From the NCBI GenBank assembly GCA_004295005.1, contig SHNG01000177.1, forward strand, positions 1-51,938: a DNA stretch of 51,938 bases, given 5' to 3'. The position numbers were made by a program, and so were the translations under genes. The stretch is from Gammaproteobacteria bacterium (GTDB taxonomy: Bacteria; Pseudomonadota; Gammaproteobacteria; Xanthomonadales; Rhodanobacteraceae). Shown here one piece after another: positions 2,253-23,238 of the stretch; position 1 is the stretch's first letter; every line of letters begins with the position of its first letter. The notes under the pieces are model-generated. The model saw only the letters and a list, made by a program, of their open reading frames with translations, was not told where the DNA came from and made no database searches.

Positions 2253-2260
2253 GTCGTGAA

Positions 2261-2431: not shown

Positions 2432-2437
2432 CCAGCC

Positions 2438-3655: not shown

Positions 3656-3666
3656 GGAGCACGAAA

Positions 3667-4089: not shown

Positions 4090-4095
4090 TTGGGG

Positions 4096-4236
4096 CCGGG
4101 ATTCGAAATTCGGGATTTGGGATTCGGAAATAGCAACGTGAGGTTTCCGCGCTCCTCCGCGACAATGCTTGGCTGCGCAATTGCCGGCAGTGAGAAGTTG
4201 GCCGCGAATCCGGCTCTCCCGAATCCCCAATCCCCG
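4096..4236. repeat. Xanthomonad-type palindromic repeat between gspG and gspH
   Basis: This is a second copy of the element seen at 2261-2431. The left arm (4096-4129) reads GGGATTCGAAATTCGGGATTTGGGATTCGG in effect, the right arm (4205-4236) CGAATCC...CCCGAATCCCCAATCCCC, and the 75-bp interior has GCAACGTGA, TTTCCGCGCTCCTCC and GCAATTGCCGG. Arms are inverted with respect to each other. It occupies most of the 171-bp gap and leaves gspH with no recognisable ribosome binding site just upstream of its start. Confidence 0.7.
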
Positions 4237-4260
4237 CTTTCAACAGCCGGACGGCTGGTC

Positions 4261-6999: not shown

Positions 7000-7005
7000 C
7001 CTGCC

Positions 7006-8223: not shown

Positions 8224-8818
8224 ATTGCGCCCGAAGGATGGGCGGCTGCTGGCGGTTGTGTTGCTGCTGATCGTCGCCTTGTGCATTTACCTGTTCGGCG
8301 TGCACTGGTGGTTCGTGGCTCCGCACCTGAGCTACTACGAGCAGATGCGTGATCTGCGCGAGGCGCAACAACGCTACGCACGCATCATCGCCGAGCGACC
8401 GGCCATCGAACAGAAGCTGGCCGAGGTTCGCGCATTCGAGCAGGGAAACCAGGCCTTCCTTTCCGAGGCCGATGCCAACGCGGCTTCCGCGGGATTGATT
8501 ACCCGGCTGCGCCAGTCGCAGACCGACCAGACCGATCCCAAGCGCTGCTCCGTGGTCAGCAATACGCCTTACAGCGGCGGCGATGAAGAGCTGTACCAGC
8601 GTGTCGTCGTGCAGGCGCGATTGCGCTGTGACCTCGAATCGCTGGCGTCGATCCTGTACGACCTGGAAAGCGGAAAGCCTTATCTGTTTGTCGATGAACT
8701 GATGATTTACAAGCAGCAAACCTACGTACCGCCGGGGGCAAAGCGGACGGCCAGTCCACTCGATGTGCGATTCAATCTTTCCGGCTATCTGCGCCAACCT
8801 GGAAAGAAGGCGCCCTGA
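8210..8818 (+). CDS. gspM: Type II secretion system protein GspM
   Basis: The 202-residue bitopic inner-membrane protein partners GspL. ATG 8210 lies inside the end of gspL and is preceded by AAGGAGGA about 4-5 bp upstream, a strong ribosome binding site, so an in-frame ATG at 8186 is less likely. It has a short cytoplasmic N-terminus, a membrane helix LLAVVLLLIVALCIYLFGV (about 14-32), a coiled-coil segment (MRDLREAQQRYARIIAERPAI) and a periplasmic ferredoxin-like domain. The order and topology match XpsM. The stop overlaps the next start by one base (TGATG). Confidence 0.9.
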   Translation: MARLELRPKDGRLLAVVLLLIVALCIYLFGVHWWFVAPHLSYYEQMRDLREAQQRYARIIAERPAIEQKLAEVRAFEQGNQAFLSEADANAASAGLITRLRQSQTDQTDPKRCSVVSNTPYSGGDEELYQRVVVQARLRCDLESLASILYDLESGKPYLFVDELMIYKQQTYVPPGAKRTASPLDVRFNLSGYLRQPGKKAP

Positions 8819-9540
8819 TGGAAATCCGTCACGCCCGCAACCTGACCCTTGGCCTCGCCGGCATCTGCGGGGTTTTGGTGCTGGCTGCCCTTGTCCAATT
8901 GGCGGGTTACGGTCGCGGCTACGGCTGGCTGCCGGCGGACTCAACCGGCGCGCCCGAGTTGCTCGGCGACATTGATCGCGAACCGTTCCGCATGCCTCCG
9001 CGATCAGGCTTCGGCGATGTTGAAACCCGCCCCTTGTTCAATGAGGACCGCAAGCCGAGCCCGGTGGGCGACGGCGACATGACGGCCGAGGCGCCACCGG
9101 CGGCGCCCCTGAACGCAACCCTGACCGGGGTGATTCTGGTGCGCAAGACGGAATCGACCGGTGAGCTCAGGATTGCCATGGTGCGTGACAATCTGCGGAA
9201 CGAAACCGTTGCGCTCAAGGTCGGAATGCCGTTGCAGGGCGATCAGGCGGGCTGGACCCTGGTCGATCTGCAACCGCGACTGGCAAAGTTCCGCAATGCC
9301 AGCGATGAGACGGCAGAAATCGAGTTGAACACGGCTGCAGGTCCGGCGCAGGCGCCGCCAGCTCCGCGCGCCCCGGCAGAGGCGCCCGTAGGCCGCGGAC
9401 AGGTTGCGCCACCCAAGGCCGGCGACCCGGCAGAAACGGACCTGGCAAAACGCATTGAAGAGCGCAGGCGGCAGATGCGCGAAGAGGCAGAGCGCCTGCG
9501 GGCGCAACGCGGGAATTCCCCCGCCGAGCAGAAGAATTGA
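8818..9540 (+). CDS. xpsN: Type II secretion protein XpsN (GspC-like periplasmic connector)
   Basis: This 240-residue bitopic protein occupies the slot of xpsN in Xanthomonas, where XpsN replaces GspC and links the inner-membrane L/M complex to secretin D. It shows one N-terminal membrane helix (LGLAGICGVLVLAALVQLAG), then an HR-like periplasmic domain (about 98-168: LNATLTGVILVRKTESTGEL, VALKVGMPLQGDQAGWTLVD), then a Pro/Ala-rich linker and a charged coiled-coil tail (DLAKRIEERRRQMREEAERL). No PDZ domain is present. Function is inferred from position and topology; sequence conservation in this family is low. Confidence 0.85.
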   Translation: MEIRHARNLTLGLAGICGVLVLAALVQLAGYGRGYGWLPADSTGAPELLGDIDREPFRMPPRSGFGDVETRPLFNEDRKPSPVGDGDMTAEAPPAAPLNATLTGVILVRKTESTGELRIAMVRDNLRNETVALKVGMPLQGDQAGWTLVDLQPRLAKFRNASDETAEIELNTAAGPAQAPPAPRAPAEAPVGRGQVAPPKAGDPAETDLAKRIEERRRQMREEAERLRAQRGNSPAEQKN

Positions 9541-9553
9541 CGGAGTGATTCAC

Positions 9554-11854
9554 GTGGCAACCAGAATTATCAATTTCGCGGCTGCTCTCGCCCTCACCGT
9601 GCTGGCAGGGTGCACAAGCGCGCCAATTCGGGATGACTCGGCCGGCGGGCTGCGGCAGTCGGTGCTGACCGCGGACAACATGGCAAAGCCTCCCCGCGGT
9701 CGGGGTGGGGCCAGGGCGACAGACTCCGAAGGGCTTGATGTCAGCGCTACAGGGCCGGATACCTTTGCCGCACCCAAGCCGGAAATCCAGGTGGGTACCG
9801 GCAAGTTCATCAACGAGGAAGCTGCCAAGCGCAAAGCCCCTGAACCCGCGGGTGAGGGGCAGGTCGACTTCAATTTCGAGAACAATCCAATCCAGGCGGT
9901 GGTCAAGGCAATCCTCGGCGACTTGCTGCAGGAAAACTATACGATTGCTCCGAACGTGGGCGGCAATGTGTCGTTCTCGACGGCCAAGCCGATTCGGGCG
10001 GACCAGGCCATGTCGGTTTTGGAGATGTTGCTGTCCTGGACCGGCAACACCCTCATCCACAAGGACGGTCGCTACACGGTGTTGCAGATCAAGGATGCAG
10101 TGCCAGGCAATCTGACCCCAAGGCTGGCATCGCCGAAACTGGCTGATGGGTACGAGGTACGGGTTTTCCCTCTGCGATACGTCTCTCCCTCGGAGATGGC
10201 CAAGCTGCTTACGCCGTATGCCAAGCCGACGGCGTTCATCAACATTGATACCGCGCGCAGCATGCTGGTGCTGGCCGGCACGGCTTCCGAGCTTTCCAAT
10301 TACGCCCAGACCATCGAAATCTTCGATGTCGACTGGCTCAAGGGCATGTCCATCGGTGTTTTCAACCTGCAGCGGGTGGAAGTGGCAACCCTGATGCCGG
10401 AGCTTGAAAAGATTTTCGGCGCTACCGGTGAATCGCCCTTGGCGGGCATGTTCCGCTTCGTGCCGATAGAGCGTACCAATTCAGTCATCGCCATCACCTC
10501 GCAACCGGAATACCTGAAGCAGGCCGAGGAGTGGTTGCACCGACTGGATCGTGCCGGTGATGAAAGCTCGACCCAGTTGTTCGTCTACGACGTGAAGAAC
10601 ATCAAATCGGCCGATCTGGCCGACTACCTGGGCCAGATCTTCCTCGGCAGCTCCGGCGGTGGTTCTTCCGGGCGCTCGGATACTTCGGGTTCGGTCGCGC
10701 CTGGGCTTGCTGCCGCGACCATCGGCAATGCAGGAGGCAATGCGGCAACAGGCAGTGCCGGCTCGCGGCGGTCCAGCCGCCTGGGTGGAGCCGCCAGTAC
10801 GACCAAATCGAGTTCCTCGGCGGGTTCAGTCTCAAGCAGCCCGGATTCCGACATCCGCATCACCTCGGTCGAGGAAAGCAACCAGTTGCTGGTCATGGCC
10901 ACCCCAGCCGAATGGGATGCCATGCAGGGTGCCATTCGCCGCCTGGACATTGCCCCACTCCAGGTTCACATTGAAACCAAGATTCTCGAAGTGACCCTGA
11001 GCGGCGCCTTGCAGTACGGCGTGAAATGGTGGTTTACCGGCTTGATGGGTGAAGGCTACGGTGCGACCTATGAGAATCCCCAAGGCAGGCCCTACCCGAA
11101 TCCTAGTGATCGTCAGAGAGGTTTGTTGGGGGCGGCAACCACGCCCGCAGTCGCCGGCTCCAACATTTTTGCCTCTTACCTGAACAGCAAGTTCCAGGTG
11201 GCCTTGAGTGCCCTGCAAAACAACGGACAGGCCAAGGTCCTGTCGGCGCCGTCACTGGTCGTGATGAACAATCAGGAAGCGCAGATCAACGTCGGTACGC
11301 GCATTCCCGTGCAGCAGACCAGCATTGTCGGACTCGGGGCGGTCCAAGGCAGCGTGACCAACCCGAACATCGGTCAATCAACCGGGGTTGGCCAGGTCTC
11401 CTATCTGGACACGGGCGTGATCCTGCAGGTCAGGCCACGAGTCAACCCCGGCGGGCTGGTGTATCTGGAGGTATCCCAGGAAGTCAGCAAACCGGGTGTG
11501 GCCGGTGCCGTCAATGGCAATCCGCCCATCAACACGCGCACCCTGGATACCAGCATTGCCGTGAACAGTGGTGACACCATCCTGTTGGGCGGCTTGATTT
11601 CCGAAGATGACCAGACCTCGGAGGATGGCGTGCCAGGCCTCAGCCGAATTCCCATTCTCGGCAAACTGTTTGGAAGTACGCGAAAGGAAACGCAACGTAC
11701 CGAATTGATTGTCCTGATCACCCCGCAGGTGATGAACAACTCGGAAGATGCGCGTGAAATCACCGAGGAATACAAGCGCCAGTTCCAGGGACTGGTGCCC
11801 CTGAACCACAAAGTGAACCGGACCGAGCCGGAAGTGGTCGAAGACGCCCCATGA
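9554..11854 (+). CDS. gspD: Type II secretion outer-membrane secretin GspD (lipoprotein-type)
   Basis: The 766-residue secretin forms the outer-membrane channel of the T2SS. GTG 9554 is preferred because GGAG sits 8 bp upstream and it yields a lipoprotein signal peptide ending LTVLAGC (lipobox LAG^C), as in the lipid-modified XpsD of Xanthomonas, which needs no separate pilotin. N0 (VDFNFENNPIQAVVKAILG), N1 (VFPLRYVSPSEMAKLLTPYA), N2 and N3 domains follow. N3 holds a 70-residue Gly/Ser-rich insertion (GSSGGGSSGRSDTSG and on). The secretin domain ends with VPGLSRIPILGKLFGS and TELIVLITPQVM. It is last of the xps genes. Confidence 0.96.
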   Translation: MATRIINFAAALALTVLAGCTSAPIRDDSAGGLRQSVLTADNMAKPPRGRGGARATDSEGLDVSATGPDTFAAPKPEIQVGTGKFINEEAAKRKAPEPAGEGQVDFNFENNPIQAVVKAILGDLLQENYTIAPNVGGNVSFSTAKPIRADQAMSVLEMLLSWTGNTLIHKDGRYTVLQIKDAVPGNLTPRLASPKLADGYEVRVFPLRYVSPSEMAKLLTPYAKPTAFINIDTARSMLVLAGTASELSNYAQTIEIFDVDWLKGMSIGVFNLQRVEVATLMPELEKIFGATGESPLAGMFRFVPIERTNSVIAITSQPEYLKQAEEWLHRLDRAGDESSTQLFVYDVKNIKSADLADYLGQIFLGSSGGGSSGRSDTSGSVAPGLAAATIGNAGGNAATGSAGSRRSSRLGGAASTTKSSSSAGSVSSSPDSDIRITSVEESNQLLVMATPAEWDAMQGAIRRLDIAPLQVHIETKILEVTLSGALQYGVKWWFTGLMGEGYGATYENPQGRPYPNPSDRQRGLLGAATTPAVAGSNIFASYLNSKFQVALSALQNNGQAKVLSAPSLVVMNNQEAQINVGTRIPVQQTSIVGLGAVQGSVTNPNIGQSTGVGQVSYLDTGVILQVRPRVNPGGLVYLEVSQEVSKPGVAGAVNGNPPINTRTLDTSIAVNSGDTILLGGLISEDDQTSEDGVPGLSRIPILGKLFGSTRKETQRTELIVLITPQVMNNSEDAREITEEYKRQFQGLVPLNHKVNRTEPEVVEDAP

Positions 11855-11869: not shown

Positions 11870-12337
11870 GTGACCCAGCTTCGCCACATTGCATTTCTAC
11901 TGATTGCCCTGGTCGCCGCAGGTTGTGCCAGTCAGGCGCCTCGCACGGAAATTGCTGCCGATGACGACACTGCTCCATCGGCAAAGGACAAGGAAACAAT
12001 CGAACAGCGTGCCATCCAGCGCTGGGAATTTCTGATCAATCACCAGGCGGAAAAGGCCTATGATTTTCTGAGTCCCGGCTTTCGCGCCACCAAGTCGCGC
12101 GAGGCCTATGCCGCGGAAATGAACAACAGGCCCGTGCACTGGAGCAAGGTGCTGCCATACAGCCAGAAGTGCGAAAAACCGACGGTCTGCGTGGTCAACC
12201 TTCAAATTGACTCAAATGTCAATATGCCTGGTGTCAAGGGAGCAGTCCCTTCTGTGGGTTTCGTCACGGAAACCTGGATCAAGACCCGCGGCAAGTGGTA
12301 TATCCTCCCGAACATGCCCGGTACCAAAGGCGGTTAG
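11870..12337 (+). CDS. Small lipoprotein of unknown function at end of T2SS operon
   Basis: This 155-residue protein starts at GTG 11870 with GAGGAG 7 bp upstream and a signal peptide MTQLRHIAFLLIALVAAGC ending in lipobox VAAG^C. The mature part has an acidic linker then a compact alpha/beta domain (RAIQRWEFLINHQAEKAYDF...FVTETWIKTRGKWYILPN) with a two-Cys pair (KCEKPTVCVVN). The pattern of a helix, LSPGFRATKS and a final WIKTRGKWY strand resembles NTF2-like folds, but this is only a fold guess. It lies 15 bp after gspD, so it is probably co-transcribed; a role in T2SS assembly is possible but not shown. Confidence 0.82.
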   Translation: MTQLRHIAFLLIALVAAGCASQAPRTEIAADDDTAPSAKDKETIEQRAIQRWEFLINHQAEKAYDFLSPGFRATKSREAYAAEMNNRPVHWSKVLPYSQKCEKPTVCVVNLQIDSNVNMPGVKGAVPSVGFVTETWIKTRGKWYILPNMPGTKGG

Positions 12338-12371: not shown

Positions 12372-12603
12372 GCCGACAAGTGCGAGCTTTCTGGGCTCGT
12401 TGCCCGTTTCAGGTTTATCGTCTTGTGCCAGGGGAAAGCCGGGTTGAAGTGGATTGCCCGGGAGGGATTGCACCGCATTGGACCTTGCCGTACGATTGGT
12501 CCGCTGTTGCCTAACCCTGCCCTCTGAAAAGCGGGACAAAACTGCTGTTGGACAGAAGTTAGCCGTAAGCAAAAGCCCTGTGGTCAATTTAGGAGTGTCA
12601 GTA

Positions 12604-14172
12604 ATGAAGCGAAATAGCTTGACGACCGCCGTCGTCGCCGGTATCGCCGGTACGGTGGGCATCGCGAATCTCGCGAGCGCAGTCAATCTGAACCCGGATG
12701 GTTTGGGTCAGGTTCTTATCTACCCGTATTACACCGTCAACTCGAACTCGCCAGGCAACAACCTGCAGACCCTGTTCTCCGTGGTCAACACCACCGATCA
12801 GGGCAAGGCTGTCAAGGTGCGTTTCGTTGAAGGCTACAACAGCCGCGAAGTACGCGACTTCCATGTCTACCTGTCGCCGTTTGACGTGTGGACGGCCAAC
12901 CTGTTCAAGCTGCCGGACCAGGAGCAGGCCAACCTGCTTACCGACGACAACTCGTGCACGGTGCCGGACATCAAGGGCGCAACCGGTAATGGCCTCGGCC
13001 AGTTGCCGGATGGTCGCACCTACCTGCCGTTCACCAACGCCCGTTACTCCGGCGCGTATGATGACGGCGGCCCGACCGGTCTCGCACGTACCCGTGAAGG
13101 CCATTTCGAAATCATCGAAATGGGCGTGGTTACCAATGCAACCGAAGGTTCGCTGGATGCCATCACCCACGTCGCAGGTGTGCCGGACAATTGCGCCCAG
13201 GTCATCGCTGCATGGGTCGGCACCCCGGCCGGCTACTGGATCACCGATCCGAACATCGACATCGATCCCCCGACGGGCGGGTTGTTTGGCGCCACCCTGT
13301 TGCTGGATCCAGCCACAGGCGTCAGCTCCGGCTACAGCGCGGATGCTGTTGACGGCTTCGTCACCGACGGAACCAACCTGCATGGCGTTCCCGGCGATGT
13401 GAACCCGTCGCTCTCCAGCGTTCGTGGTTTGCCGGCTGGTACCGCAACGGCCTACGTGTTCAACAATGGCGCCCTGATTTCTGCCACCTACGGTGGTGGT
13501 TTCGGTCGTCCGATCGACGCGGTCAGTGCCGTGTTCATGCAGAACAACATCTTCAACGAGTACGTGCTCGGTGGTCCGGCTGCGGCAACCACGGATTGGG
13601 TGGTCACCTTCCCGACCAAGCGCTTCTATGTTGACAATCTGATCGTTGGCGCTGCTGCGATCCAGCCGTTCGTTCAGGTGTTCGATGGCGTTTCCGACGT
13701 CGAAGTGGGCCTGTTCCCGTATGATCGTGAAGAAGGAAATCCGTCGGCCTGTACCGGTTCGGATTCCGACAACCCGAACTGCGGCGTCTGCTTCTCGCCT
13801 TGCGATGACCCGACCTTCAATGCGCCGGTACTGAGCTACGAAGCCCAGGTCATTTCGTTCCAGACTGCAGCCGACTTTGCGGCCGATTCGACCTCGCCGG
13901 TTTTGGGTTCGGCTCTGGCCAACAACGTCGACGTTCGTGCTGACTTCCTGAATGAAGGCTGGATGCGCATCGCGTTCAACCCGACCACGGAACCGCACCT
14001 GCTGTCGGCTTCGACCCAAGGTGAAGTGTTTGAAGGCCTGCCGGCTACCGGCTTCGCCATTACCAACTACATCAACGCCAATGCTGCTCCTGGCTTGCTC
14101 GCCAACTACTCGGGCCTGTGGCACCACAAGGGTTCGCGTAGCTGTGCCGCTGGTCAGCTCGCTTGCTCCTGA
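12604..14172 (+). CDS. Exported surface-type protein of unknown function
   Basis: This is a 522-residue protein. ATG 12604 follows TAGGAG (9 bp spacing) and gives a Sec signal peptide (MKRNSLTTAVVAGIAGTVG...ASA). The mature protein begins VNLNPDGLGQVLIYPYYTVN, then FSVVNTTDQGKAVKVRFVEG and FHVYLSPFDVWTANL, and later DWVVTFPTKRFYVDN. I recall this arrangement from a family of uncharacterised exported proteins in beta- and gammaproteobacteria, with no known function. It has about ten Cys, mostly in C-terminal pairs (CTGSDSDNPNCGVCFSPC; the last is CAAGQLAC). No sorting signal (PEP- or IPTL-CTERM) is present. Strong ribosome binding site and terminator suggest high expression. It may be a T2SS substrate, which is inference. 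Confidence 0.85.
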   Translation: MKRNSLTTAVVAGIAGTVGIANLASAVNLNPDGLGQVLIYPYYTVNSNSPGNNLQTLFSVVNTTDQGKAVKVRFVEGYNSREVRDFHVYLSPFDVWTANLFKLPDQEQANLLTDDNSCTVPDIKGATGNGLGQLPDGRTYLPFTNARYSGAYDDGGPTGLARTREGHFEIIEMGVVTNATEGSLDAITHVAGVPDNCAQVIAAWVGTPAGYWITDPNIDIDPPTGGLFGATLLLDPATGVSSGYSADAVDGFVTDGTNLHGVPGDVNPSLSSVRGLPAGTATAYVFNNGALISATYGGGFGRPIDAVSAVFMQNNIFNEYVLGGPAAATTDWVVTFPTKRFYVDNLIVGAAAIQPFVQVFDGVSDVEVGLFPYDREEGNPSACTGSDSDNPNCGVCFSPCDDPTFNAPVLSYEAQVISFQTAADFAADSTSPVLGSALANNVDVRADFLNEGWMRIAFNPTTEPHLLSASTQGEVFEGLPATGFAITNYINANAAPGLLANYSGLWHHKGSRSCAAGQLACS

Positions 14173-14234: not shown

Positions 14235-14299
14235 AAGGCGACTGGGTCTATGCTCTGCGCAGAATCAAGCCTCCCATATTCAAATTCGTGCCCACAATC

Positions 14300-15490
14300 A
14301 TGAAAAATGCCTTTTTTTCCTCCGTCGCCGCGCTCCTGATACCCCTGTTGGCGCTGCAACCGGCTGCGAGTCGCGCCGCCAATTTCCAGGTTGACGTGAA
14401 ACGCCTGTCCGTCACCCAGTGTTCAATGACGGGATCGCTGCTCAATATCGATCCAAGCACGGGGAATGTATCCATTGAACTGGTTGCGGATGCTTCCTGC
14501 TATCCAACACCGGTCAACCAGATGGCCAGTAGTGCCAACATGACCATCGTTGGTGCGACGACCGTTGGCGGTGGTCAGACCGGGCAGGGTTCGGTAAATT
14601 TACAACTCAACACCGGGCTTCCGGGGGTTACCAATGGCGTAACCTGCGTGCCTGACGGAGTCACAGCGTCCAACGTGACCGTGGTCTCCGGTTGGACCTC
14701 CACTCTGTGTACCAACTGTGGTGCGACCGCTGCACGTACGGTGGTTGTGCAGAACGGGAACAATCAGACCAACGGCACCATCAGTTTCAGGGCAAAGTGC
14801 ACCTATCAGGATCCAGGTAATGTGAATTTGCAGACCGTGCGCTCCAATATTCAAAGCGCCCCGTCGGTAACCGTACTTCCGGGCACCGTTCCGCAGCCGG
14901 ACTATTGCGAGAGTGTTACCGAGCTTGCGGTGCCCAATGGGCTCACCGATGCCATGCGCCAGCTGACTGGTACGGTGACAGGCGGTTTGTACCCCGGTAC
15001 CGGAAAGGATTTCACGACGTACACTGCCGTGTGGGGATTTGCCAACAATACATATTCAACCGGTGATCCGGATACCGCAGGTTATGGCTTCCCCGGCGAC
15101 AATCGCACGAATGTTCAGCTCGGAATCGAGCGGAACAAGTACATTTCGTTCCGATTCAGGGCTCCAAGCAACCCTGTCTGGAACAACAAGACCGGGCACC
15201 ACCAGGTGATTCCGGGTGCGGCCTTTACGCTCGCCTCGATTGGCAAGTGTCCAGGCCAGTTTGCCTCGGATCCGTCGTTCCCGATGAACGCTTCATGCAA
15301 CATTTCGGGCAAGGGCCAGGATCTGATCTGGACAGTGACTTCCGGAACAACTGGGGCCTGCAAGTTGGAACCGGGTGAAACCTACTATTTCAACCTTATC
15401 CAGGCCTCGGGCGCGGGCAATTTGACCACGCCGACGTGCGCATCTTCGCTTTGCACGGCGAAGGTCAATATTACGGGCACCTTCCCCTGA
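14300..15490 (+). CDS. Exported Cys-rich protein of unknown function
   Basis: This is a 396-residue protein with signal peptide MKNAFFSSVAALLIPLL...ASRAA. ATG 14300 is used; GTG 14288 would add four residues, and neither has a clear ribosome binding site. The mature protein is Ser/Thr/Asn/Gly-rich and predicted to be beta-strand-rich, with about 14 Cys (for example CTNCGATAARTVVVQNG and CASSLCTAKVNITG), consistent with a disulphide-bonded exported protein. I do not recognise a characterised family. It is separated from the 12604 gene by a terminator and ends in its own terminator, so it is a single-gene transcript downstream of the T2SS operon. Confidence 0.8.
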   Translation: MKNAFFSSVAALLIPLLALQPAASRAANFQVDVKRLSVTQCSMTGSLLNIDPSTGNVSIELVADASCYPTPVNQMASSANMTIVGATTVGGGQTGQGSVNLQLNTGLPGVTNGVTCVPDGVTASNVTVVSGWTSTLCTNCGATAARTVVVQNGNNQTNGTISFRAKCTYQDPGNVNLQTVRSNIQSAPSVTVLPGTVPQPDYCESVTELAVPNGLTDAMRQLTGTVTGGLYPGTGKDFTTYTAVWGFANNTYSTGDPDTAGYGFPGDNRTNVQLGIERNKYISFRFRAPSNPVWNNKTGHHQVIPGAAFTLASIGKCPGQFASDPSFPMNASCNISGKGQDLIWTVTSGTTGACKLEPGETYYFNLIQASGAGNLTTPTCASSLCTAKVNITGTFP

Positions 15491-15886: not shown

Positions 15887-16810
15887 GTGTTCAATTCACC
15901 TCGCCTCATTTTTTCCGTCACCCTGTTCCTCTCGGCAGTAGGCACGGGACATGCCGCAGAACGTTATCCAACGGATACTGTCGTGGCCAAGCGCGGAGAC
16001 GCCGTCGTAACGATGCTGGATCTGGACGCGGCACTGCTGCGCGTACCCGAGCGAATCCGTGCCAATGTCATGAACAGCCCCAAGCGTATCGAGGAGTTGA
16101 TCGATCGCCTGCTAACCAACCGACAGTTGGCCAACGAGGGTCGTGCCGAGAAGCTCAACCAGGGCGAAGCGTTCAACCGCGCCGTGCAGCAGGAGACAGA
16201 GAACCTGCTCTCGGAGCTGCGACTGATCGAAATGCGCTCCAATCTGGACGTGGGCAAGGTGGATGAATTGGCGCGGGAACGCTATGACGTCAACCCGGAG
16301 GCTTATGCGATCCAGGGCACGACCTCCGCCCGCCACATTCTCATTGACACCAAGTCACGCAGTGAAGAAGAAGCGCGCAAACTGGCCGACGAATTGTACG
16401 CAAGAATCGCTGCGGGTGAGGACTTTGATGCCTTGGTGATGAAGTATTCCGACGATCCATCCAAGACCTCGAACAAGGGCGTCATTTTTGCGGCAGATTC
16501 GGATTCCATGGATCCTGCCTTTGCGGATGCGGTGAAGAAGCTCGCAAACGCCGGAGACATTTCTCCTGTAGTCAAGTCCTCGTTTGGCTTCCACATCATC
16601 AAGCTGGAGCAGCGAACCGCCGCCAAGCCGAGGTCGTTTGACGAGGTCAAGCAGCAGATCGTCGCCGAGATCGAGAAGACCATGCGCGAGGCGAAAGTGA
16701 AGGAACACCTGGATGAGTTGAAGGCCATGCCGCTTGAAGCCACGCCAGAAGTGGTTGCGTCACTGCGCACGCGTTACCTGCCGGAAGGCGCTCAGCAAGA
16801 GACGCCATAG
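15887..16810 (+). CDS. Exported PpiC-type peptidyl-prolyl cis-trans isomerase
   Basis: This 307-residue protein has a signal peptide (MFNSPRLIFSVTLFLSAVGTGHA). GTG 15887 has GGAG 9 bp upstream. A SurA/PpiD-like N-terminal helical domain (about 35-125: RVPERIRANVMNSPKRIEEL, IDRLLTNRQLANEGRAEKL) precedes one PpiC rotamase domain (about 143-240: SARHILIDTKSRSEEEARKL, GEDFDALVMKYSDDPS, SSFGFHIIKLEQR). Such proteins fold outer-membrane or exported proteins in the periplasm. A full SurA with two rotamase domains is encoded separately at 38789-40105, so this is an additional chaperone. Its position between exported-protein genes and a polysaccharide cluster suggests a dedicated client, which is inference. 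Confidence 0.9.
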   Translation: MFNSPRLIFSVTLFLSAVGTGHAAERYPTDTVVAKRGDAVVTMLDLDAALLRVPERIRANVMNSPKRIEELIDRLLTNRQLANEGRAEKLNQGEAFNRAVQQETENLLSELRLIEMRSNLDVGKVDELARERYDVNPEAYAIQGTTSARHILIDTKSRSEEEARKLADELYARIAAGEDFDALVMKYSDDPSKTSNKGVIFAADSDSMDPAFADAVKKLANAGDISPVVKSSFGFHIIKLEQRTAAKPRSFDEVKQQIVAEIEKTMREAKVKEHLDELKAMPLEATPEVVASLRTRYLPEGAQQETP

Positions 16811-17150
16811 GATTCGACGAGAGGACTTCCGGGCGCTTGATCTGCCGACCGTACTGGGTTGATTGGTGGGGGGCAAGAATTGATGGGTGTCCAGATGGAC
16901 CCAGCGCATGCTTGTGACTTCATTGCGGTCAGGAATGACCACCTTCCGCCCGGTATGAATCAGTCAACCCGGGGGATTGGGCCCCACGAGGGAACGCAAC
17001 ACGGACGCTGTGCCTCGAAGCATTTCCAATTGTGTATGGGCGGTATCCGATCGCCGCGCGTATCATTGCACCGATGCCGGACGGCAAGAGAGCGTACCGG
17101 CACACGGCCGGTTCGCTGGTGTTCGCCGCCGGTTCTTCAGTGGGGAAGCA
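16811..17150. other. Gene-free stretch upstream of the polysaccharide export cluster
   Basis: These 340 bp lie between the PpiC gene and wzm. Open frames through it are not supported by start signals. Small hairpins are visible (TGGGTGTCC-AGAT-GGACCCA near 16885 and GGTCA-GGAA-TGACC near 16928). No Rho-independent terminator with a T-run was seen. The cluster promoter is presumably here, but no good -35/-10 pair could be identified. Confidence 0.45.
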
Positions 17151-17921
17151 ATGAACAAAATTTCACTCGCCCTGCAGTTTGTCAGGCGAGAACTCAACGA
17201 ACGCTACCGAGGCAGTTTCACGGGGTTTGGATGGGCTTTCCTGCAGCCCCTGTTGCAACTGGCCATCTATGCGTTTGTCTTTGTGGAAATCTTCAAGGCA
17301 CGAATTCCCGGGGCGGGCGCGCCAGCATACGTTCCCTTCCTGGTGGTGGGATTGTGGCCGTGGATCGCCTTTTCGGATGCAATCCTGAGGTCGACAACCG
17401 CGCTCCAGGACAATTCCGCGCTGATCGGAAAGGTTGCTGTGCCGAGGGAGATTCTCGTGTTTGCTCCGTGCGCAGCAGGATTCATGCTGCACCTGGGTGG
17501 ATTCGTCGTCATCTTGCTCGCCCTTGCGCTGACGGGGCAGGGAATCAGGATCCAGGGACTTCCATTCGCGGTTCTCATGTACGTGCCGATGTTCCTGTAT
17601 GCCTATGGTGCGGCTCTTTGCTTCGCCGCGTTGCAGGTTTTCGTAAGGGACCTGGTGCAGATCCTGGGGCAACTTTTGACCCTGATGATGTTTGCCGCGC
17701 CCATTTTCTATGACCGCAGCAACCTCCCCGATCGCTACCAGGGTTGGTTGGATCTGAATCCATTTACCGGCTATGTGGAAGCGTATCGCTTCCTGCTCCT
17801 TGGACACGGAAATTTCAGTTGGAGCGCATTGGCGCTGGTGCTTGCAATTGCACTGATCTCGTATCTGGCTGGATCCTGGTTGTTTCGCCGCCTGGATCCG
17901 CACTTTGAGGACTTTCTGTGA
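17151..17921 (+). CDS. wzm: ABC-2 type polysaccharide exporter permease (Wzm family)
   Basis: The 256-residue inner-membrane permease exports a lipid-linked polysaccharide with the Wzt ATPase encoded next. ATG 17151 is preceded by GGGGAAG. The N-terminal amphipathic part FVRRELNERYRGSFTGFGW is typical of O-antigen/teichoic-acid permeases (RDLKxRYxxSxLGxxWxxLxP). Six hydrophobic segments are visible, including LLQLAIYAFVFVEIF, LGGFVVILLALALTG and LILGQLLTLMMFAAPIFY-like, ending LAGSWLFRRLDPHFEDFL. The stop overlaps the wzt GTG start by 4 bp. Confidence 0.93.
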   Translation: MNKISLALQFVRRELNERYRGSFTGFGWAFLQPLLQLAIYAFVFVEIFKARIPGAGAPAYVPFLVVGLWPWIAFSDAILRSTTALQDNSALIGKVAVPREILVFAPCAAGFMLHLGGFVVILLALALTGQGIRIQGLPFAVLMYVPMFLYAYGAALCFAALQVFVRDLVQILGQLLTLMMFAAPIFYDRSNLPDRYQGWLDLNPFTGYVEAYRFLLLGHGNFSWSALALVLAIALISYLAGSWLFRRLDPHFEDFL

Positions 17922-19117
17922 GCGAGGTACTGGTTCGCGCTGAAGGCTTGGGGAAGCGATTCCCGAAATCCCATCGTTCGTCGGATCGCCTTCGCTCGCT
18001 TGGCCGATTGCTGCTGGGTGGTGGCGATGTCGATGGCCAGCAGGTATTGCACGACATCAACCTCGAGGTGAAACGAGGCGAGTCGGTCGCCATCATCGGC
18101 GAAAACGGGGCAGGCAAGTCGACCCTGCTCAAGTTGATTACCGGGGTGCTTACCGCGACCGAAGGCGCGGCAAAGGTTTACGGAAAGGTCGGTGCGTTGC
18201 TTGAACTAGGCGCCGGTTTCCATCCCGAGTACAGCGGACGCGACAACATCGCCATGGCAGGTGCACTGTATGGCTTGAACCGAAGCCAGATTGCAGAGTG
18301 TCTGCCAGGCATCATCGAGTTCGCGGATATTGGCACCTACATCGAGGAGCCGGTGAAACACTACTCCTCGGGCATGGTTGTCCGCCTCGGGTTTGCCATC
18401 ATTGCCGCTCTCAAGCCTGACCTCTTGATCACGGATGAAGTGTTGGCGGTGGGGGATGAATCCTTCCAGAAGAAGTGCGTACGCTGGATGGAGGACTACC
18501 TGGCGGGTGGTGGAACCCTGTTGCTGGTTTCGCACAGCATGTATCACGTGCAAAAGCTTTGCAGCCGCGCGCTCTGGTTGCAGCACGGCAAGGTTGCCAT
18601 GTATGGGGATGTGTTCGATGTCTCGCAGGCCTATCTTGCCTGGCATGAGCGCCGCCAGGCGGCGGTGGCCTCGGATCAAAGTGTGCGAGCGGGTCAGGAG
18701 TTCGAGATTGTCGAATTCATGGTCAACGGACGGCACGAAAATCCGGCCCCGGTTCTCGGCGTCGGGGATCCGCTGCGACTGCGGGTTCGCGTAGGGTCGC
18801 GCGAACGGCGTACGCCGGTTGTCATGTTCGGTATCGCACGCGCCGACGGAACGCCGGTTTATGGCGTCAGTTCGGAAATGGACGCTGTTGTGCCTGAGGG
18901 CGGGCACTCGTCCGTTTTTTGCGCAGAGATCGAGTTCGAAGGCATCAGCTTGCTGCCAGGCAGTTACATGGTCAAGGTGCATGCACTCGACTCCGAAGGT
19001 ATCCGCCTGTTCGACACTGAGGAGCGAACCTTGACCGTGCGTGGTGAGTCGAGGGAATTCGGCCTGGTGCGCCTGCCGCACCGATGGGTCCGGTTTGTGG
19101 GTGAAGTCGATGAATGA
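17918..19117 (+). CDS. wzt: Polysaccharide ABC exporter ATPase with C-terminal carbohydrate-binding domain (Wzt family)
   Basis: The 399-residue ATPase drives export of a polysaccharide by the Wzm permease. Walker A GENGAGKSTLL (about 61-71), Q-loop region GAGFHPEYSGRDNI, signature YSSGMVVRLGFA (about 148) and Walker B LLITDEVLAVGDE (about 168) are present. After residue 245 comes a beta-rich domain (FEIVEFMVNGRHENPAPVLG, LLPGSYMVKVHALDSEGIRL) of the Wzt_C type. In O8/O9a-type systems that domain binds the modified non-reducing end of the glycan, so this exporter probably recognises a capped chain. It overlaps the methyltransferase start by 8 bp. Confidence 0.93.
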   Translation: MSEVLVRAEGLGKRFPKSHRSSDRLRSLGRLLLGGGDVDGQQVLHDINLEVKRGESVAIIGENGAGKSTLLKLITGVLTATEGAAKVYGKVGALLELGAGFHPEYSGRDNIAMAGALYGLNRSQIAECLPGIIEFADIGTYIEEPVKHYSSGMVVRLGFAIIAALKPDLLITDEVLAVGDESFQKKCVRWMEDYLAGGGTLLLVSHSMYHVQKLCSRALWLQHGKVAMYGDVFDVSQAYLAWHERRQAAVASDQSVRAGQEFEIVEFMVNGRHENPAPVLGVGDPLRLRVRVGSRERRTPVVMFGIARADGTPVYGVSSEMDAVVPEGGHSSVFCAEIEFEGISLLPGSYMVKVHALDSEGIRLFDTEERTLTVRGESREFGLVRLPHRWVRFVGEVDE

Positions 19118-19997
19118 GAGCACCCCGCCCCTGCCGTTTACCGGAGAGCGCTTCACTCCCGAGTGTGTTCGTGAAATCTGGTACGAGCACTGGCATCGGT
19201 ATGCATTTGCAGTGCCGCTGGTTGCAGGCAAGCGCGTTCTGGATGCCGCATGTGGTGAAGGTTACGGGTCCAACCTGCTGGCAGGAGTGGCGTCGGAAGT
19301 CGTGGGAATGGATATTTCCGCCGAGGCCGTTGGCCATGCGCGGTCGCGATACGCGGACCGGAAGAATCTTCGCTTCGAAGTTGGCGATGTATCCAGGCTG
19401 CCATTTGATGACTCGACTTTCGACTGCGTGGTTTCATTTGAAACCCTCGAGCATCTTGCGGCCCAACAGGAGTTGGTGGCCGGATTCCAGCGTGTCTTGA
19501 AGCCCGAGGGTATGCTGCTGATCTCCTCCCCGGACAAGCGCAACTACAGCGACATCGCCGGTTTCCGCAATGAATTCCATGTGCGCGAACTGTATCGGGA
19601 GGAATTGCAGGAGCTCCTGCTTCGGTATTTCCCCCATGTGCGCCTGTATGCACAGAAGCTGCTGTTCCAGTCGGCTTTGTGGTCGCTTGATGGACAAGGC
19701 ACGGGTTGCCGTGTTTCTTCCCTCGATGCGGATGGCTCAGGCCTCGTCGATGGCATGACCAGTGCGCCGCTTTACTACGTGGCGGCCTGTTCCCGACAGC
19801 CCTTGGCGCCGGAATTGCCGGCCATTTCCTGGTTCGCAGATCGTCAGGAATCGGTGTATTCCCATTACAATGGGGAAGTTCGCAAGAACATGAGCAGCGG
19901 AACCCGCATCGCCGAACTCGAGGCCGAGGTTCAAAGGCTGCGTGATGCCTCCACACAAAAACCGCGTAGCCGATGGTTCGGCTGGTTGCGTCGATAA
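19110..19997 (+). CDS. Class I SAM-dependent methyltransferase with C-terminal coiled coil
   Basis: This is a 295-residue protein. Motif I is VLDAACGEGYGSNLLAG, followed by the acidic VVGMDIS, then FEVGDVSRLPFDDSTFDCVV and FETLEHL, all typical of Methyltransf_11/25 enzymes. The last 40 residues are a predicted coiled coil (TRIAELEAEVQRLRDAS) with a basic tail (KPRSRWFGWLRR) that could contact the membrane. In the cluster it follows Wzt, whose C-terminal domain binds capped glycans. A role in methylating the chain end or a sugar is therefore plausible, but the substrate is unknown. Its start lies within the wzt 3' end. Confidence 0.88.
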   Translation: MNESTPPLPFTGERFTPECVREIWYEHWHRYAFAVPLVAGKRVLDAACGEGYGSNLLAGVASEVVGMDISAEAVGHARSRYADRKNLRFEVGDVSRLPFDDSTFDCVVSFETLEHLAAQQELVAGFQRVLKPEGMLLISSPDKRNYSDIAGFRNEFHVRELYREELQELLLRYFPHVRLYAQKLLFQSALWSLDGQGTGCRVSSLDADGSGLVDGMTSAPLYYVAACSRQPLAPELPAISWFADRQESVYSHYNGEVRKNMSSGTRIAELEAEVQRLRDASTQKPRSRWFGWLRR

Positions 19998-20014: not shown

Positions 20015-21874
20015 ATGACGAAAACATCCGAATTTCAGGTCAGTTATGGCCAGATGAAACCTGTGCAGGCTGTGGCGGCGCAGGCCGAGGCCCCGCTGTA
20101 TGCAGCCATCGATGCCATGGTTGCGCCGCTGTCCAGCGACGAGTACGCGTTCATCGCCAAGGATTCGGGTGAACGCCATGTGCTGAGTCATCATGTCCTG
20201 CAGACGCTGGATCAGTGCCGTGAGTTCAGGCCGATCGACGAGCATGTGGCACGGGTTGTATCGGTCGTTCCCGGTCTCACCCAGCAGGACCGCATCCGCA
20301 AGGGTCTTGAAGGTTTGGCTGCTGCGGGCTTGCTGGTGAGGGATTCGGATTTCCTGGATCGGCTGAAGCGGGCGCCGGAGGCCACTTCGAGAACCCTGCA
20401 CGCCATTTACATCCGCGCCTGTGATCGGCCACAACAGTTGAAGAAGCTGCTCGATTCGCTGGCCAACTACGAGCGGAAATTCCGGGTTGCGCGGTCCGTG
20501 GTCTTGCTGGACGACTCCACCGACGCAAGGAGTCAGGACCAGAACCGCGATCTGCTGCGTGAGTTTGCGCGCGCCGTCGGCAATCCGGTCAGCTACTTTG
20601 GGCCAAGCGAGCGCCAGCGTCTGCGCGAGCGCTTGCTCAAGGCTGTGCCAGGAAGCGGGAAGAGCCTGGAATGGTTGCTGGATCGCGGCCCGCGCACACG
20701 CCGACCTGGCGGAGGACGCTCCTGGAACATCGCACTGCTGCTTTCGGCAGGACGCATGTTCGCCATGCTCGATGAGGATTTCCGCTTTCCACTGCGGCGT
20801 CTTCAGGAAGTGCGCGCTGGCCTCGAACCCAATCCATCGGTCGCGGCGTCTGCGCGATTCTTTCGGCGCCTCGAAGATGCGCTGTCAGCCGGGGAGGAGG
20901 AGTCGTCGGACCCCTTCGAATCGCATCTGGCGGTCTGCGGTGCCCAATTGGGTTGCGTGCTCGGCCTCGAAGGATATGGGCTGGAACGCCAAAGCCTGCG
21001 CGGCATCAACCTCGGCCGGCTTGAACATCTGCGCGGTGATGCGCAGATCCTGTATTCGTTGAACGGCACCTGTGGCAGCTCCGGAACCGAGAGCGCGCTA
21101 TGGCTCTACCAGTTGGATGCGGAAAGCCGCGCCGACTTGTGGGCTGATCGCGAAGCCTATCTTCGCAATATCGAGGCACAGAGCCTCTGGTATGGCTGGT
21201 TGCGCCCAAAGCCGGCCACCCAGGCCTATTTCACGCCATTCATGTTCGACAACCGTGAGTTGCTTCCGTGCACGAATCCGGACGGCCGCGGCGAGGATGG
21301 CTTGGCCAGCGCGGCAACCAAGTACTGCCGCGAGGCTTCCCTGGTGATGCACCTGCCGAGTGTGATCGGTCATGCACAGGAGTCGGCGCGCAAGCGCTCG
21401 GAAATCACCATGGCTGCACACACGCCGCGCTTCAACCACTTTCTGCGTGAACACGTCAGTGGGCAGGTCGGATCGGCCCGCGCCAGTGATCCGGGGCGTC
21501 GCCTGCATTTGCTGGCTGAGACCACGGCTGATCTGGCCGCAAGCAGTGATTCTGCCCTGGAGAATTCCCTGCAGGAATACCTGGGCTACATCCGTGCCGA
21601 TATCGTTGAACGACTGCAGAACCAGTTTGAATTGCTCGCAGATGCTCCGGTCTACTGGCAAGCCGACGTGCGTTCCATCGTGCGCAACAATGGCAACGCC
21701 TTGTTGAAGCATGGCGCGCCACGCCTGGCCGACTGGCCCGAGACATTTGACGCCAAACAATGCGTGGATGCGGCGCGTGCCGAACTTCAGGATATTGCCC
21801 AGGCCTGGCGCGATTGGCCGGCATTGTGGAATGCCGCGCGCGAACTGGGCGACCGACTCGTCAGCGGACTCTGA
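20015..21874 (+). CDS. PqqD/RRE-like domain fused to GT-A-like glycosyltransferase domain, family unknown
   Basis: This is a 619-residue protein. ATG 20015 follows AAGAAA; the frame is open slightly upstream. Residues about 30-115 (YAFIAKDSGERHVLSHHVLQ, IRKGLEGLAAAGLLVRDSDF) read like a PqqD-type winged helix: beta strands, a helix ending in a polar turn, and a final helix with the aGLLv ending. Residues about 125-430 look like a GT-A nucleotide-sugar transferase: LHAIYIRACDRPQQLKKLLD, SVVLLDDSTD, SWNIALLLSAGRMFAMLDED (LDED as DxD-like metal site) and LPCTNPDGRGEDGL (GED as acceptor/base motif). The remainder is helical. Domain calls are by eye. Sitting between a methyltransferase and a GT2 gene, it probably acts in glycan assembly. 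Confidence 0.72.
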   Translation: MTKTSEFQVSYGQMKPVQAVAAQAEAPLYAAIDAMVAPLSSDEYAFIAKDSGERHVLSHHVLQTLDQCREFRPIDEHVARVVSVVPGLTQQDRIRKGLEGLAAAGLLVRDSDFLDRLKRAPEATSRTLHAIYIRACDRPQQLKKLLDSLANYERKFRVARSVVLLDDSTDARSQDQNRDLLREFARAVGNPVSYFGPSERQRLRERLLKAVPGSGKSLEWLLDRGPRTRRPGGGRSWNIALLLSAGRMFAMLDEDFRFPLRRLQEVRAGLEPNPSVAASARFFRRLEDALSAGEEESSDPFESHLAVCGAQLGCVLGLEGYGLERQSLRGINLGRLEHLRGDAQILYSLNGTCGSSGTESALWLYQLDAESRADLWADREAYLRNIEAQSLWYGWLRPKPATQAYFTPFMFDNRELLPCTNPDGRGEDGLASAATKYCREASLVMHLPSVIGHAQESARKRSEITMAAHTPRFNHFLREHVSGQVGSARASDPGRRLHLLAETTADLAASSDSALENSLQEYLGYIRADIVERLQNQFELLADAPVYWQADVRSIVRNNGNALLKHGAPRLADWPETFDAKQCVDAARAELQDIAQAWRDWPALWNAARELGDRLVSGL

Positions 21875-21891
21875 ACAAGGACAAGACGACC

Positions 21892-22839
21892 GTGTCGTCC
21901 GAATCGGCAACAGGGCAAACCAGCGTCGTTGTGGTCACCGCCGACAGTGGATGCGTGGCCTTGGCTGCCATCCGCAATGTCCTGAATTCCAATGCTGCCG
22001 TCGAATTGATGGTTGTCGACAACGCTTCGCAAGATGGATTGCCAACGCGTATTGAACGGGAGTTCGCCAAGGATGCGCGCCTGCGCGTGGTTCGCAACGA
22101 ACGCAATCTCGGGTTCGGCGCTGCATGCAACCAGGCATCCTGGCTTGCCGGAGGCGAAACGCTGTTGTTCCTGAATCCCGATTGCCTGATCGGGGATTCG
22201 ACCATCGCCGGCTTGCAGCAGGTGGCTGCAACCTTCCCGGATGCCGGACTGTTGGGTGTGCAAGTTGTGGATTCCGGGGGCAAGGAAGAACGTGCGAACC
22301 GACGCCAGGAACCCTTGCTGTGGCGTGCATTGGCAACGGCAACCGGCCTGTCGCGATTCCAGCGACGCTTCCCGAACCTTGCAGGAGTCGAGTTGCCCTC
22401 CGCGCTGGCAACTGCTTCGGTTGAGGTGGTCGATGCGGTTTCCGGCGCCTGCATGATGGTGTCGCGTCGAGCGTTTGATGCAGTCGGCGGTTTTGACGAA
22501 GGCTATTTCCTGCATTGCGAGGATCTGGACCTTTGTCGGCGCATTCGCGATGCGGGATTCAAGGTGCTGCACGTGCCCTCCATTCGGGTCATGCACGCAC
22601 AAGGCAGCTCAAGTCGCAGTCGTCCGACCTTTGTCGCCTACCACAAGCACCGCAGCATGTGGCGTTACTTCAGGAAATTCGATCCGGCAGCGCGCAACCC
22701 GGTCTTGCGCTTGCTGGTCTGGTTTGGCATCTGGGCGCATTTCTCGTGCATGCTGCCAGTCTACGCCTGGCGCCGCTTGCGGCACCGTCGCGAGCCTGTG
22801 GACGAAGCGCGGCAGGAACCGGCCACAAGAAAAGGCTGA
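21892..22839 (+). CDS. Family 2 glycosyltransferase (rhamnosyltransferase-like, WbbL type)
   Basis: This is a 315-residue protein. GTG 21892 has AAGGA about 10 bp upstream, 17 bp past the preceding stop. It has the GT-A fold with SVVVVTADSG at the N-terminus, MVVDNASQDG, NERNLGFGAACNQ, the metal-site LFLNPDCLI and the late motif GGFDEGYFLHCEDLDLCRR, a layout typical of WbbL-like rhamnosyl- or N-acetylglucosaminyl transferases. The C-terminal hydrophobic segment LLVWFGIWAHFSCMLPVYAW may anchor it at the inner membrane. Last gene of the polysaccharide cluster; donor and acceptor unknown. Confidence 0.9.
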   Translation: MSSESATGQTSVVVVTADSGCVALAAIRNVLNSNAAVELMVVDNASQDGLPTRIEREFAKDARLRVVRNERNLGFGAACNQASWLAGGETLLFLNPDCLIGDSTIAGLQQVAATFPDAGLLGVQVVDSGGKEERANRRQEPLLWRALATATGLSRFQRRFPNLAGVELPSALATASVEVVDAVSGACMMVSRRAFDAVGGFDEGYFLHCEDLDLCRRIRDAGFKVLHVPSIRVMHAQGSSSRSRPTFVAYHKHRSMWRYFRKFDPAARNPVLRLLVWFGIWAHFSCMLPVYAWRRLRHRREPVDEARQEPATRKG

Positions 22840-22860
22840 TCGGGTGTTGTGCCCGGTCAG
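22836..22860. terminator. Shared hairpin across two convergent stop codons
   Basis: CTGATCGGG (22836-22844) and CCCGGTCAG (22852-22860) form a 9-bp stem with one G-T pair and a 7-nt loop. The left arm contains the glycosyltransferase stop and the right arm the PilZ gene stop. There is no T-run on either side, so termination is only suggested. Confidence 0.4.
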
Positions 22861-23183
22861 GGCGTGTCCTGGTCAGCGAATCGTGATTCGTAGAGGAGAT
22901 CCTTCACTTTGGTCTCCTGGCCGTCCTCAAAGGCGAAACCGAGATCTTCGGAATTCTCGCGCACACAGGATGCATCGACGGCGATGACGGTTTCCTGGTC
23001 AAAAATGAAATAGATGCAATAGCGCTTGTCGTCGGCCCCTTGCCAGTGCTGCGGCCGTGCAAGGCGGGCGCCGCCCTGTGAGAGGTCGCGCACTTCGCTC
23101 AGCCAGCCCTGGCCGGCCTGCGTGATCAACGCCGCGGAGAATGCGGGCAAACGGGGAAAACGCCGCTTTTCACTCTCTTTCAT
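22857..23183 (-). CDS. PilZ domain protein (cyclic di-GMP receptor)
   Basis: This 108-residue single-domain protein has KRRFPRLP (RxxxR motif) near the N-terminus and DLSQGGARL (DxSxxG) about 25 residues later, both needed to bind cyclic di-GMP. It is followed by a beta-barrel ending in GFAFEDGQETKVKDLLYES. ATG 23183 gives MKESEKRRFPRL; an in-frame GTG at 23192 would add three residues, and neither start has a good ribosome binding site. It is convergent with the glycosyltransferase gene. Control of polysaccharide output by cyclic di-GMP would fit the location but is inference. Confidence 0.88.
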   Translation of the reverse strand: MKESEKRRFPRLPAFSAALITQAGQGWLSEVRDLSQGGARLARPQHWQGADDKRYCIYFIFDQETVIAVDASCVRENSEDLGFAFEDGQETKVKDLLYESRFADQDTP

Positions 23184-23238
23184 TGCCGCCACGATAGTCG
23201 CCAGACGGGCGCGGACGCAAGCCGGGGTCGAGTGTCAA

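Follow-up and report, generated by a model that had tools for sequence, protein, structure and literature searches.

We describe a fusion gene on a contig of 51,938 nt (SHNG01000177.1, assembly GCA_004295005.1; the window below is this whole stretch) of a gammaproteobacterium from the Rhodanobacteraceae. The gene is located on the forward strand between a methyltransferase and a glycosyltransferase gene, downstream of a type II secretion system (T2SS), a secreted protein that is probably the surface-layer (S-layer) protein NpdA, and the Wzm/Wzt components of a glycan exporter. Its product is predicted to combine an N-terminal domain folding like the recognition elements (RREs) of ribosomally synthesized and post-translationally modified peptide (RiPP) pathways with a glycosyltransferase (GT) domain of the GT-A fold, and hence we refer to it as the RRE-GT gene. 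The open reading frame (ORF), 20015–21874, is real and conserved; it starts with ATG at 20015, and a further in-frame ATG is located at 19973. The features of the gene are:

20015–21874, + strand: RRE-GT fusion gene, 619 amino acids (aa) (ORF listing, genome matches, model, Foldseek)
20030–20050, + strand: tail motif EFQVSYG, residues 6–12, 14 residues before the RRE (sequence; model segment with predicted local distance difference test score, pLDDT, below 50)
20096–20368, + strand: predicted PqqD/RRE-like winged helix, residues 28–118 (model, hhalign, Foldseek)
20387–21394, + strand: predicted GT-A domain, approximately residues 125–460, limits chosen by us from the model (model, Foldseek, motifs)
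21395–21859, + strand: predicted C-terminal helical domain, approximately residues 461–615, no family match (model, Pfam)

The AlphaFold2 model, built from 41 sequences (the window protein and 40 loci of the named-genome scan described below), has mean pLDDT 90.3 and predicted template modelling score (pTM) 0.89 for the whole protein, and pLDDT 89.9 for the N-terminal domain alone. The latter is predicted to form a winged helix of three β-strands followed by three α-helices, as in RREs, in agreement with the preliminary description of this DNA, made from the sequence alone, which had proposed a PqqD/RRE-like fold. The segment AAAGLLV, which had been assigned to the end of the final helix, is indeed present, and the model assigns it to the last part of helix three and a short strand. 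In a Foldseek search with the N-terminal domain alone, chains from RiPP pathways (LynD, TbiB1, ThcOx, TruD, TigE, MibB, MadB, CteB, NisB) occupy 19 of the 21 top places, the other two being chains of a protein methyltransferase, and PqqD appears at place 28; each of the RiPP-pathway chains presumably carries an RRE. The probability is about 1.0 at the top of the list, with the best E-value 4.6e-3. As no match passed E 0.001, a profile comparison was added. With the PqqD profile (PF05402) built from 30 sequences of the order, hhalign yields probability 48.6% and score 24.8 over 65 of 67 columns, compared to at most 14.5 for six other protein stretches, 12.1 for the reversed alignment and at most 18.1 for 100 column shuffles. 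At the curated cut-off, hmmscan with PF05402 finds no PqqD match in the window protein or in any of 27 family members. Two below-cut-off PF05402 matches elsewhere in the same genome were set aside, since 13 of 14 control genomes match at the same E-value. Residues 28–118 are thus predicted to fold like RREs.

The middle of the protein had been described as a GT-A-like sugar transferase, and this assignment holds: residues 125–460 are modelled as a GT-A domain. With the full model, Foldseek retrieves GT-A enzymes, GlfT2 (E 3.4e-4, probability 1.00, TM-score only 0.26), and further hyaluronan synthase and GpgS, also with low global TM-scores. The window protein shares with these enzymes the predicted fold and the DDS, DxD and ED motifs, and differs in its low identity (approximately 7–23% among the listed matches), in the extra RRE and in the C-terminal helical domain. 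All GT motifs are intact: RACDRP (134–139), DDS (166–168, within LLDDS), LDED (252–255) and GRGED (424–428, with RGED at 425–428), so that D253 and D255 of the DxD motif and the acidic E427 and D428 are present; the roles of these positions are presumably those of GT-A enzymes in general. In Pfam and NCBIfam the 619-aa protein has no match above cut-off, the GT2 family PF00535 scoring 15.6 bits on the GT half (cut-off 23.3), and the Pfam matches to CHASE3 and PRP38 were taken as chance. No match was found by phmmer among PDB sequences, and a single weak match of the family profile there was also considered random.

Matches to the protein were found in 31 of 60 related genomes, including its own, and, at E≤1e-10, in 119 of 348 genomes of the order. 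One genome, G040, in which the match covers only the RRE part, counts among the carriers in the 60-genome comparison and among the non-carriers in the 348-genome one. Using a 15-sequence alignment, the named-genome scan produced 46 loci, among them loci from Dokdonella, Rudaea, Tahibacter, Pseudofulvimonas and many unplaced metagenome-assembled genomes, and 40 more loci were selected by us for spread from the 348-genome matches. Out of 112 ORF matches 99 were retained; the 13 dropped ones were two duplicates and 11 partial or broken copies, and therefore this selection removed no whole proteins devoid of the RRE. One long match of the 348-genome scan, in G461:C54, which is not among the loci taken, covers positions 109–604 and begins past the RRE. 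Loci L011, L017 and L028 were left out of alignment A1, and L046, L056, L071, L073, L074 and L075 out of alignment A3. We consider 77 of the 99 proteins as operon-linked and 22 as unlinked.

The genes upstream and downstream of the RRE-GT gene in the window are:

507–9540, + strand: T2SS gene block (Pfam T2SSE, T2SSF, T2SSK, PilN, T2SSM_b), with the following ORFs
507–2252, + strand: gspE (T2SSE match)
2360–3655, + strand: gspF (T2SSF match)
3652–4089, 4656–5333 and 5330–6067, + strand: prepilin-like genes (N-termini read by eye)
4090–4722, + strand: ORF without assigned family, T2SS region
6064–6999, + strand: gspK (T2SSK match)
7006–8223, + strand: gspL/PilN-like gene (PilN match)
8186–8818, + strand: gspM (T2SSM_b match)
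8818–9540, + strand: ORF without assigned family, T2SS region
9404–11854, + strand: GspD secretin ORF (TIGR02517, E 1.3e-141, over cut-off)
11870–12337, + strand: small gene, lipoprotein-like, following gspD and preceding the NpdA homologue; conserved across many loci
12604–14172, + strand: secreted protein, probable NpdA S-layer protein, 522 aa from the ATG at 12604 (ORF 12454–14172)
14288–15490, + strand: second protein, poorly conserved, signal-peptide-like start, 400-aa ORF
15887–16810, + strand: SurA/EpsD-like peptidyl-prolyl isomerase (Pfam/NCBIfam)
17151–17921, + strand: Wzm-type ATP-binding cassette (ABC) permease (Pfam/NCBIfam on ORF 16977–17921)
17918–19117, + strand: Wzt-type ATPase with Wzt_C glycan-binding domain (ABC_tran; Wzt_C 39.1 bits, cut-off 30.4)
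19110–19997, + strand: S-adenosylmethionine-dependent methyltransferase with a short C-terminal coiled-coil-like tail (by eye)
21892–22839, + strand: GT2 family glycosyltransferase, probable start GTG at 21892 (Pfam/NCBIfam on ORF 21760–22839)

The order on the forward strand is T2SS, gspD, lipoprotein-like gene, secreted protein, second protein, isomerase, wzm, wzt, methyltransferase, RRE-GT and GT2. The pairs wzm–wzt and wzt–methyltransferase overlap, 17 bases separate the methyltransferase from the RRE-GT gene, and about 17 bases separate the latter from the GT2 gene. The placement of the gene in a Wzm/Wzt cluster in the preliminary description is correct as far as it goes, as it directly follows wzm, wzt and the methyltransferase and precedes GT2; the locus is larger, includes the T2SS, and is probably of the NpdA S-layer type. 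The adjacency is not universal: among 82 loci with at least 4.5 kb of upstream sequence, wzm and wzt are both present in 64, only wzt in one and neither in 17, about half of the compared loci being close relatives of the window. The 64 loci with wzm all contain wzt and GT2 (downstream in 63, only upstream in L077), and 62 contain the methyltransferase and 62 the isomerase; where the upstream sequence reaches 8.2 kb or more, 57 of 60 wzm loci show an NpdA homologue, and where it reaches 9.3 kb or more, 42 of 47 show gspD. The locus combines a gsp cluster directly upstream of an npdA homologue with the permease, the Wzt_C-containing ATPase and the methyltransferase of a putative ABC glycan-export system, where the methyltransferase may have a capping role. 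This methyltransferase begins with a very conserved FTGERFTPECVREIWYEHWHRY segment, and its tail is reminiscent of WbdD-type chain terminators. A gene encoding a PilZ-domain protein (22857–23192, reverse strand) is located just downstream, likewise in the six closest loci (L031–L036), and a link to cyclic di-GMP is possible.

Fusions of RREs with glycosyltransferases are already in print. They are mentioned in the RRE-Finder study of 2020 (PMC7470986), and fusions with PF00535 in its 2025 update (PMC12710340); for these and the other articles cited, our statements concern the accessible parts of the text. The architecture called unusual in the preliminary description is therefore rare rather than unheard of. 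The window protein belongs to the same fusion class, its GT half being a sub-threshold PF00535 match, whereas the published fusions were proposed in a RiPP context, and the neighbourhood of T2SS, NpdA and Wzm/Wzt, the decay of the GT domain and the N-terminal tail discussed below do not appear in the accessible parts of these two accounts. It resembles the RREs of PqqD and of NisB, LynD and TbiB1 in the three-strand sheet, the three-helix bundle and the weak PqqD profile match, and differs from them in the lack of an hmmscan match to PF05402, in the absence of RiPP enzymes among scanned neighbours and in the T2SS/glycan locus. Among the matches listed for open-licence PubMed Central literature, judged by title and the start of the abstract, none describes an RRE-GT family in an S-layer or Wzm/Wzt setting.

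Since RRE-GT fusions have been proposed as markers of RiPP clusters (PMC7470986; PMC12710340, accessible parts), the RRE fold could point to a cryptic RiPP pathway whose precursor peptide has escaped recognition. We consider this very improbable: no conserved small ORF is seen in the gap between the isomerase and wzm, the sole gap searched, in 10 loci; the interval from wzm to GT2 in the window leaves no room for a precursor-peptide ORF; and no RiPP-type enzymes are found among the scanned window neighbours, the neighbours in other loci having been inspected by eye only.

NpdA has been reported as an S-layer protein with a 25-residue signal peptide and a mature form of 52 kDa, encoded downstream of 12 gsp genes and carried by Dokdonella koreensis, D. 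fugitiva, Rudaea cellulosilytica and Tahibacter amnicola (PMC10765051, 2023). We observe the same neighbourhood in D. fugitiva (L040/L056), R. cellulosilytica DSM 22992 (L054) and Tahibacter (L041, L042, L044, L063), and the secreted protein of the window is probably NpdA, judging by the species list, the neighbourhood, the size and the signal peptide (26 residues here). In both cases the T2SS genes are directly upstream of the secreted protein; the accessible part of the published account describes the gsp genes and not the downstream module from wzm to GT2. Some genomes of the listed carriers hold several NpdA-homologue paralogues. The NpdA homologue has only weak kinesin matches among PDB sequences, taken as chance.

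The presence of the RRE-GT gene tracks that of the NpdA homologue, which is found in 107 of the 119 gene-positive genomes. Among the 60 relatives the homologue is present in all 31 gene-positive genomes and in three of the other 29. In the 348 genomes, with kinship ignored, both are present in 107, only the RRE-GT gene in 12 (ten of these genomes being less than 90% complete), only the NpdA homologue in 33, and neither in 196; the p-value of 2e-45 ignores phylogeny and is not used. The link is seen even when the genes are apart: G042, G052 and G044 have a cluster of NpdA, wzt, methyltransferase and GT2 without the RRE-GT gene, an unlinked copy being located elsewhere in the genome. G041, G051 and G054 have the cluster, and a genome-wide search shows no RRE-GT homologue in them. 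Finally, in two genomes from other families of the class, G132 (L204) and G073 (L205), the NpdA homologue is accompanied by a small lipoprotein gene, an isomerase, wzm and wzt; the surrounding genes differ, and the RRE-GT gene has no match there. This pairing suggests a wider system of NpdA plus ABC glycan export.

This tracking, even in the absence of linkage, agrees with the possibility that, in the cytoplasm, NpdA is captured through its N-terminal leader by the RRE and glycosylated by the GT-A domain prior to export by Sec and the T2SS. The signal peptide is gapless across the homologues, and the mean pairwise identity (25 sequences selected by us, 300 pairs) is 0.60 for the signal peptide and 0.79 for the first 20 mature residues, compared to 0.45 for the mature protein; a leader more conserved than the mature protein is unusual for signal peptides. 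The first 20 mature residues are of the VNLNPDGLGQVLIYPYYTVN type. Pairing of RREs with Sec-signal precursors has been reported as well (PMC12710340, accessible part). Still, signal peptides are similar in genomes without the RRE-GT gene (L197–L199), and therefore their conservation may serve Sec or the T2SS. Given this, and the catalytic losses considered next, we regard a leader-guided protein glycosyltransferase as unlikely.

A tree of 73 proteins (26 close rows left out) was constructed with the quick mode of IQ-TREE after removal of the motif columns; it contains several long branches, and the tool flagged many rows for unusual residue composition. A branch with Shimodaira–Hasegawa-like approximate likelihood ratio test (SH-aLRT) support 94 separates the operon-linked proteins, together with one unlinked paralogue (L068), from the rest. 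Defining a loss as a change of D253, D255 or D428, and not counting changes of E427 only (QD, GD, DD), we observe losses in 15 of 51 operon-linked rows and in none of 22 others (15 of 73 overall), with the fewest changes on the tree equal to six, while the RRE region is filled in all 15 rows (89–92 letters over 91 positions). From the alignment, the GT domain thus appears to have lost catalytic residues on six or more occasions, all within the operon-linked group and with the RRE kept. In some pairs the RRE is far more similar than the GT domain: identities are 68 and 34%, respectively, for L085 and L178 (ratio 2.0), 63 and 27% for L085 and L077, and 43 and 23% for L090 and L082. In G040, which is outside the tree, the protein in the operon slot retains the RRE (48.6 bits), while its GT domain can no longer be recognised in the first half and lacks both motifs. 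As the losses occur mostly in loci with an npdA homologue present, they speak against glycosylation of NpdA by this protein.

The unlinked members, with D253, D255 and D428 retained in all 22, would rather fit an ordinary chain-extending or priming glycosyltransferase, on which a ligand-free winged helix is packed as a structural element. RREs resemble general winged helices, false positives of this kind have been described (PMC7470986, accessible part), and the isomerase–wzm gap yielded no precursor peptide. However, the top Foldseek matches are RREs and not general winged helices, and the RRE outlasts the GT residues in several operon-linked lineages. We find a purely structural role improbable and rank it below the two peptide-binding alternatives, the leader-guided one above and the tail-guided one below.

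The latter concerns the start of the protein. Many operon-linked members begin, often right after the start codon, with (D/E)(F/Y)x(I/V/L/F)(N/D)(F/Y)G, followed by 11–17 variable residues and the RRE. Within 40 residues before the RRE, the strict motif is present in 43 of 77 operon-linked and none of 22 other proteins (shuffle means 0.02 and 0.0), and a looser one, in 64 of 77 and 8 of 22 (1.2 and 0.14), both patterns being post hoc, written after the sequences had been inspected. A pattern recorded prior to the addition of loci L156–L195, which are not independent of the relatives inspected earlier, matches 5 of 26 new operon-linked and none of 13 unlinked proteins as written, and 18 of 26 operon-linked ones if F, seen earlier, is permitted at the fourth place. 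The motif resembles, at the level of its letters, the FNLD box of nisin, and two members read MEFNLDFG, containing this box. In the nisin leader the box is recognised by NisB and NisC and triggers assembly of the NisB/NisC complex (PMC5294574, accessible part), and NisB with the NisA leader (4wd9) is match 21 of the Foldseek search with the N-terminal domain. The tail might accordingly bind the RRE of its own chain or of a dimer partner, setting activity or oligomerisation, with no ribosomal ligand in trans. This is also unlikely in our view, and we rank it after the leader-guided enzyme: residues 1–19 of the model have pLDDT below 50, and cis binding is therefore proposed only conditionally; the tail is absent from the f12 group and from others that retain the RRE, and alternating hydrophobic motifs are common as binding strands.

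A search of 369 genomes of the class gave matches in 29, only six of them over at least 300 of 609 positions (G000, G022, G384, G204, G064, whose copy is partial, and G070, where the RRE part is absent); the others are short GT segments, not counted as family members. No match is found among 72,556 plasmid records, and a single match in PHROGs is at chance level. The distant relative of the GT region in G070 (L102, contig C171) is C-terminal to a phosphopantetheine carrier domain (PF00550), which stands where the RRE would be; an FkbH-like stretch is, as we assume, also N-terminal of it. A separate gammaproteobacterial family (L103, L105–L111, L113–L118), mostly of about 600 residues, has the first GT segment (PVADRP ... 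DDS) in common; its sole scanned member, L106, has a sub-threshold match to DUF6271. Dokdonella immobilis has a second, unlinked paralogue (L068/L093) with intact GT motifs, adjoining, by eye, a likely methyltransferase and a GT gene.

The reading we favour, though we see it as evenly balanced between right and wrong, places the protein in the cytoplasm as a subunit of the glycan machinery encoded by an NpdA-type S-layer locus; the RRE would be a docking module, and the GT domain would be active in the window copy. It would work with the methyltransferase, GT2 and Wzm/Wzt in assembly and export of a glycan, to which the window copy would contribute by transferring a sugar, and this glycan would serve as the surface attachment for the S-layer protein exported by the T2SS. 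The RRE would dock the protein on a short peptide segment of a partner or on its own FNLD-like tail, and in lineages devoid of the catalytic residues the protein may be a non-catalytic adaptor. That the glycan anchors the S-layer is suggested by analogy with Aeromonas salmonicida, where an S-layer gene together with its T2SS interrupts the O-antigen cluster between wzm and wzt, and lipopolysaccharide tethers the layer (PMC4483657, accessible part). The A-layer/wbsalmo locus likewise unites a T2SS and an S-layer gene with Wzm/Wzt O-antigen export; it differs in the position of the S-layer genes, between wzm and wzt, and no RRE-GT gene is seen in the accessible rows of its gene table.

Several observations weigh against this reading of a docking subunit. 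No peptide ligand was found, the isomerase–wzm gap of 10 loci having no conserved small ORF. The N-terminal tail is modelled with pLDDT below 50. Loss of residues alone does not establish loss of activity. In G040 the later part of the GT domain and the C-terminus still match (76.8 bits); in intact operon-linked groups the RRE is likewise somewhat more conserved than the GT domain (ratio 1.05–1.43), and in the f12 group both are equally conserved (72%), so that the altered GT domain there is still constrained. Because of this, L085/L178, L090 and G040 are the only clear cases in which the GT domain decays faster. The co-occurrence counts are not corrected for phylogeny. As 22 of 99 proteins are not operon-linked and 33 of 140 NpdA-positive genomes have no match to the RRE-GT gene, the latter is dispensable: it belongs with the NpdA system and is not essential to it.

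The observation made in the preliminary description is confirmed, and its interpretation is supported. Neither of the outcomes named there as refuting, an N-terminus unlike PqqD or a middle lacking a GT-A fold, was obtained. A bolder version of the favoured reading, which we offer tentatively and hold to be rather doubtful, is that an RRE operating outside RiPP biosynthesis is the conserved core of an S-layer glycan machine, reading the leader or N-terminus of NpdA or a built-in FNLD-like leader, while the sugar-transferase residues have been repeatedly discarded. If true, peptide-reading RREs would serve beyond RiPPs, and synthesis of the secreted surface protein would be coupled to assembly of the glycan that holds it. 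As RRE matches are used for RiPP genome mining, the occurrence of so large a family (119 of 348 genomes) outside RiPP clusters also calls for practical caution. Lineages that have repeatedly lost GT residues and still retain the RRE offer a natural experiment on the separate roles of the two domains, and with this locus one can test how NpdA S-layers are anchored and whether a glycan is produced specifically for them.

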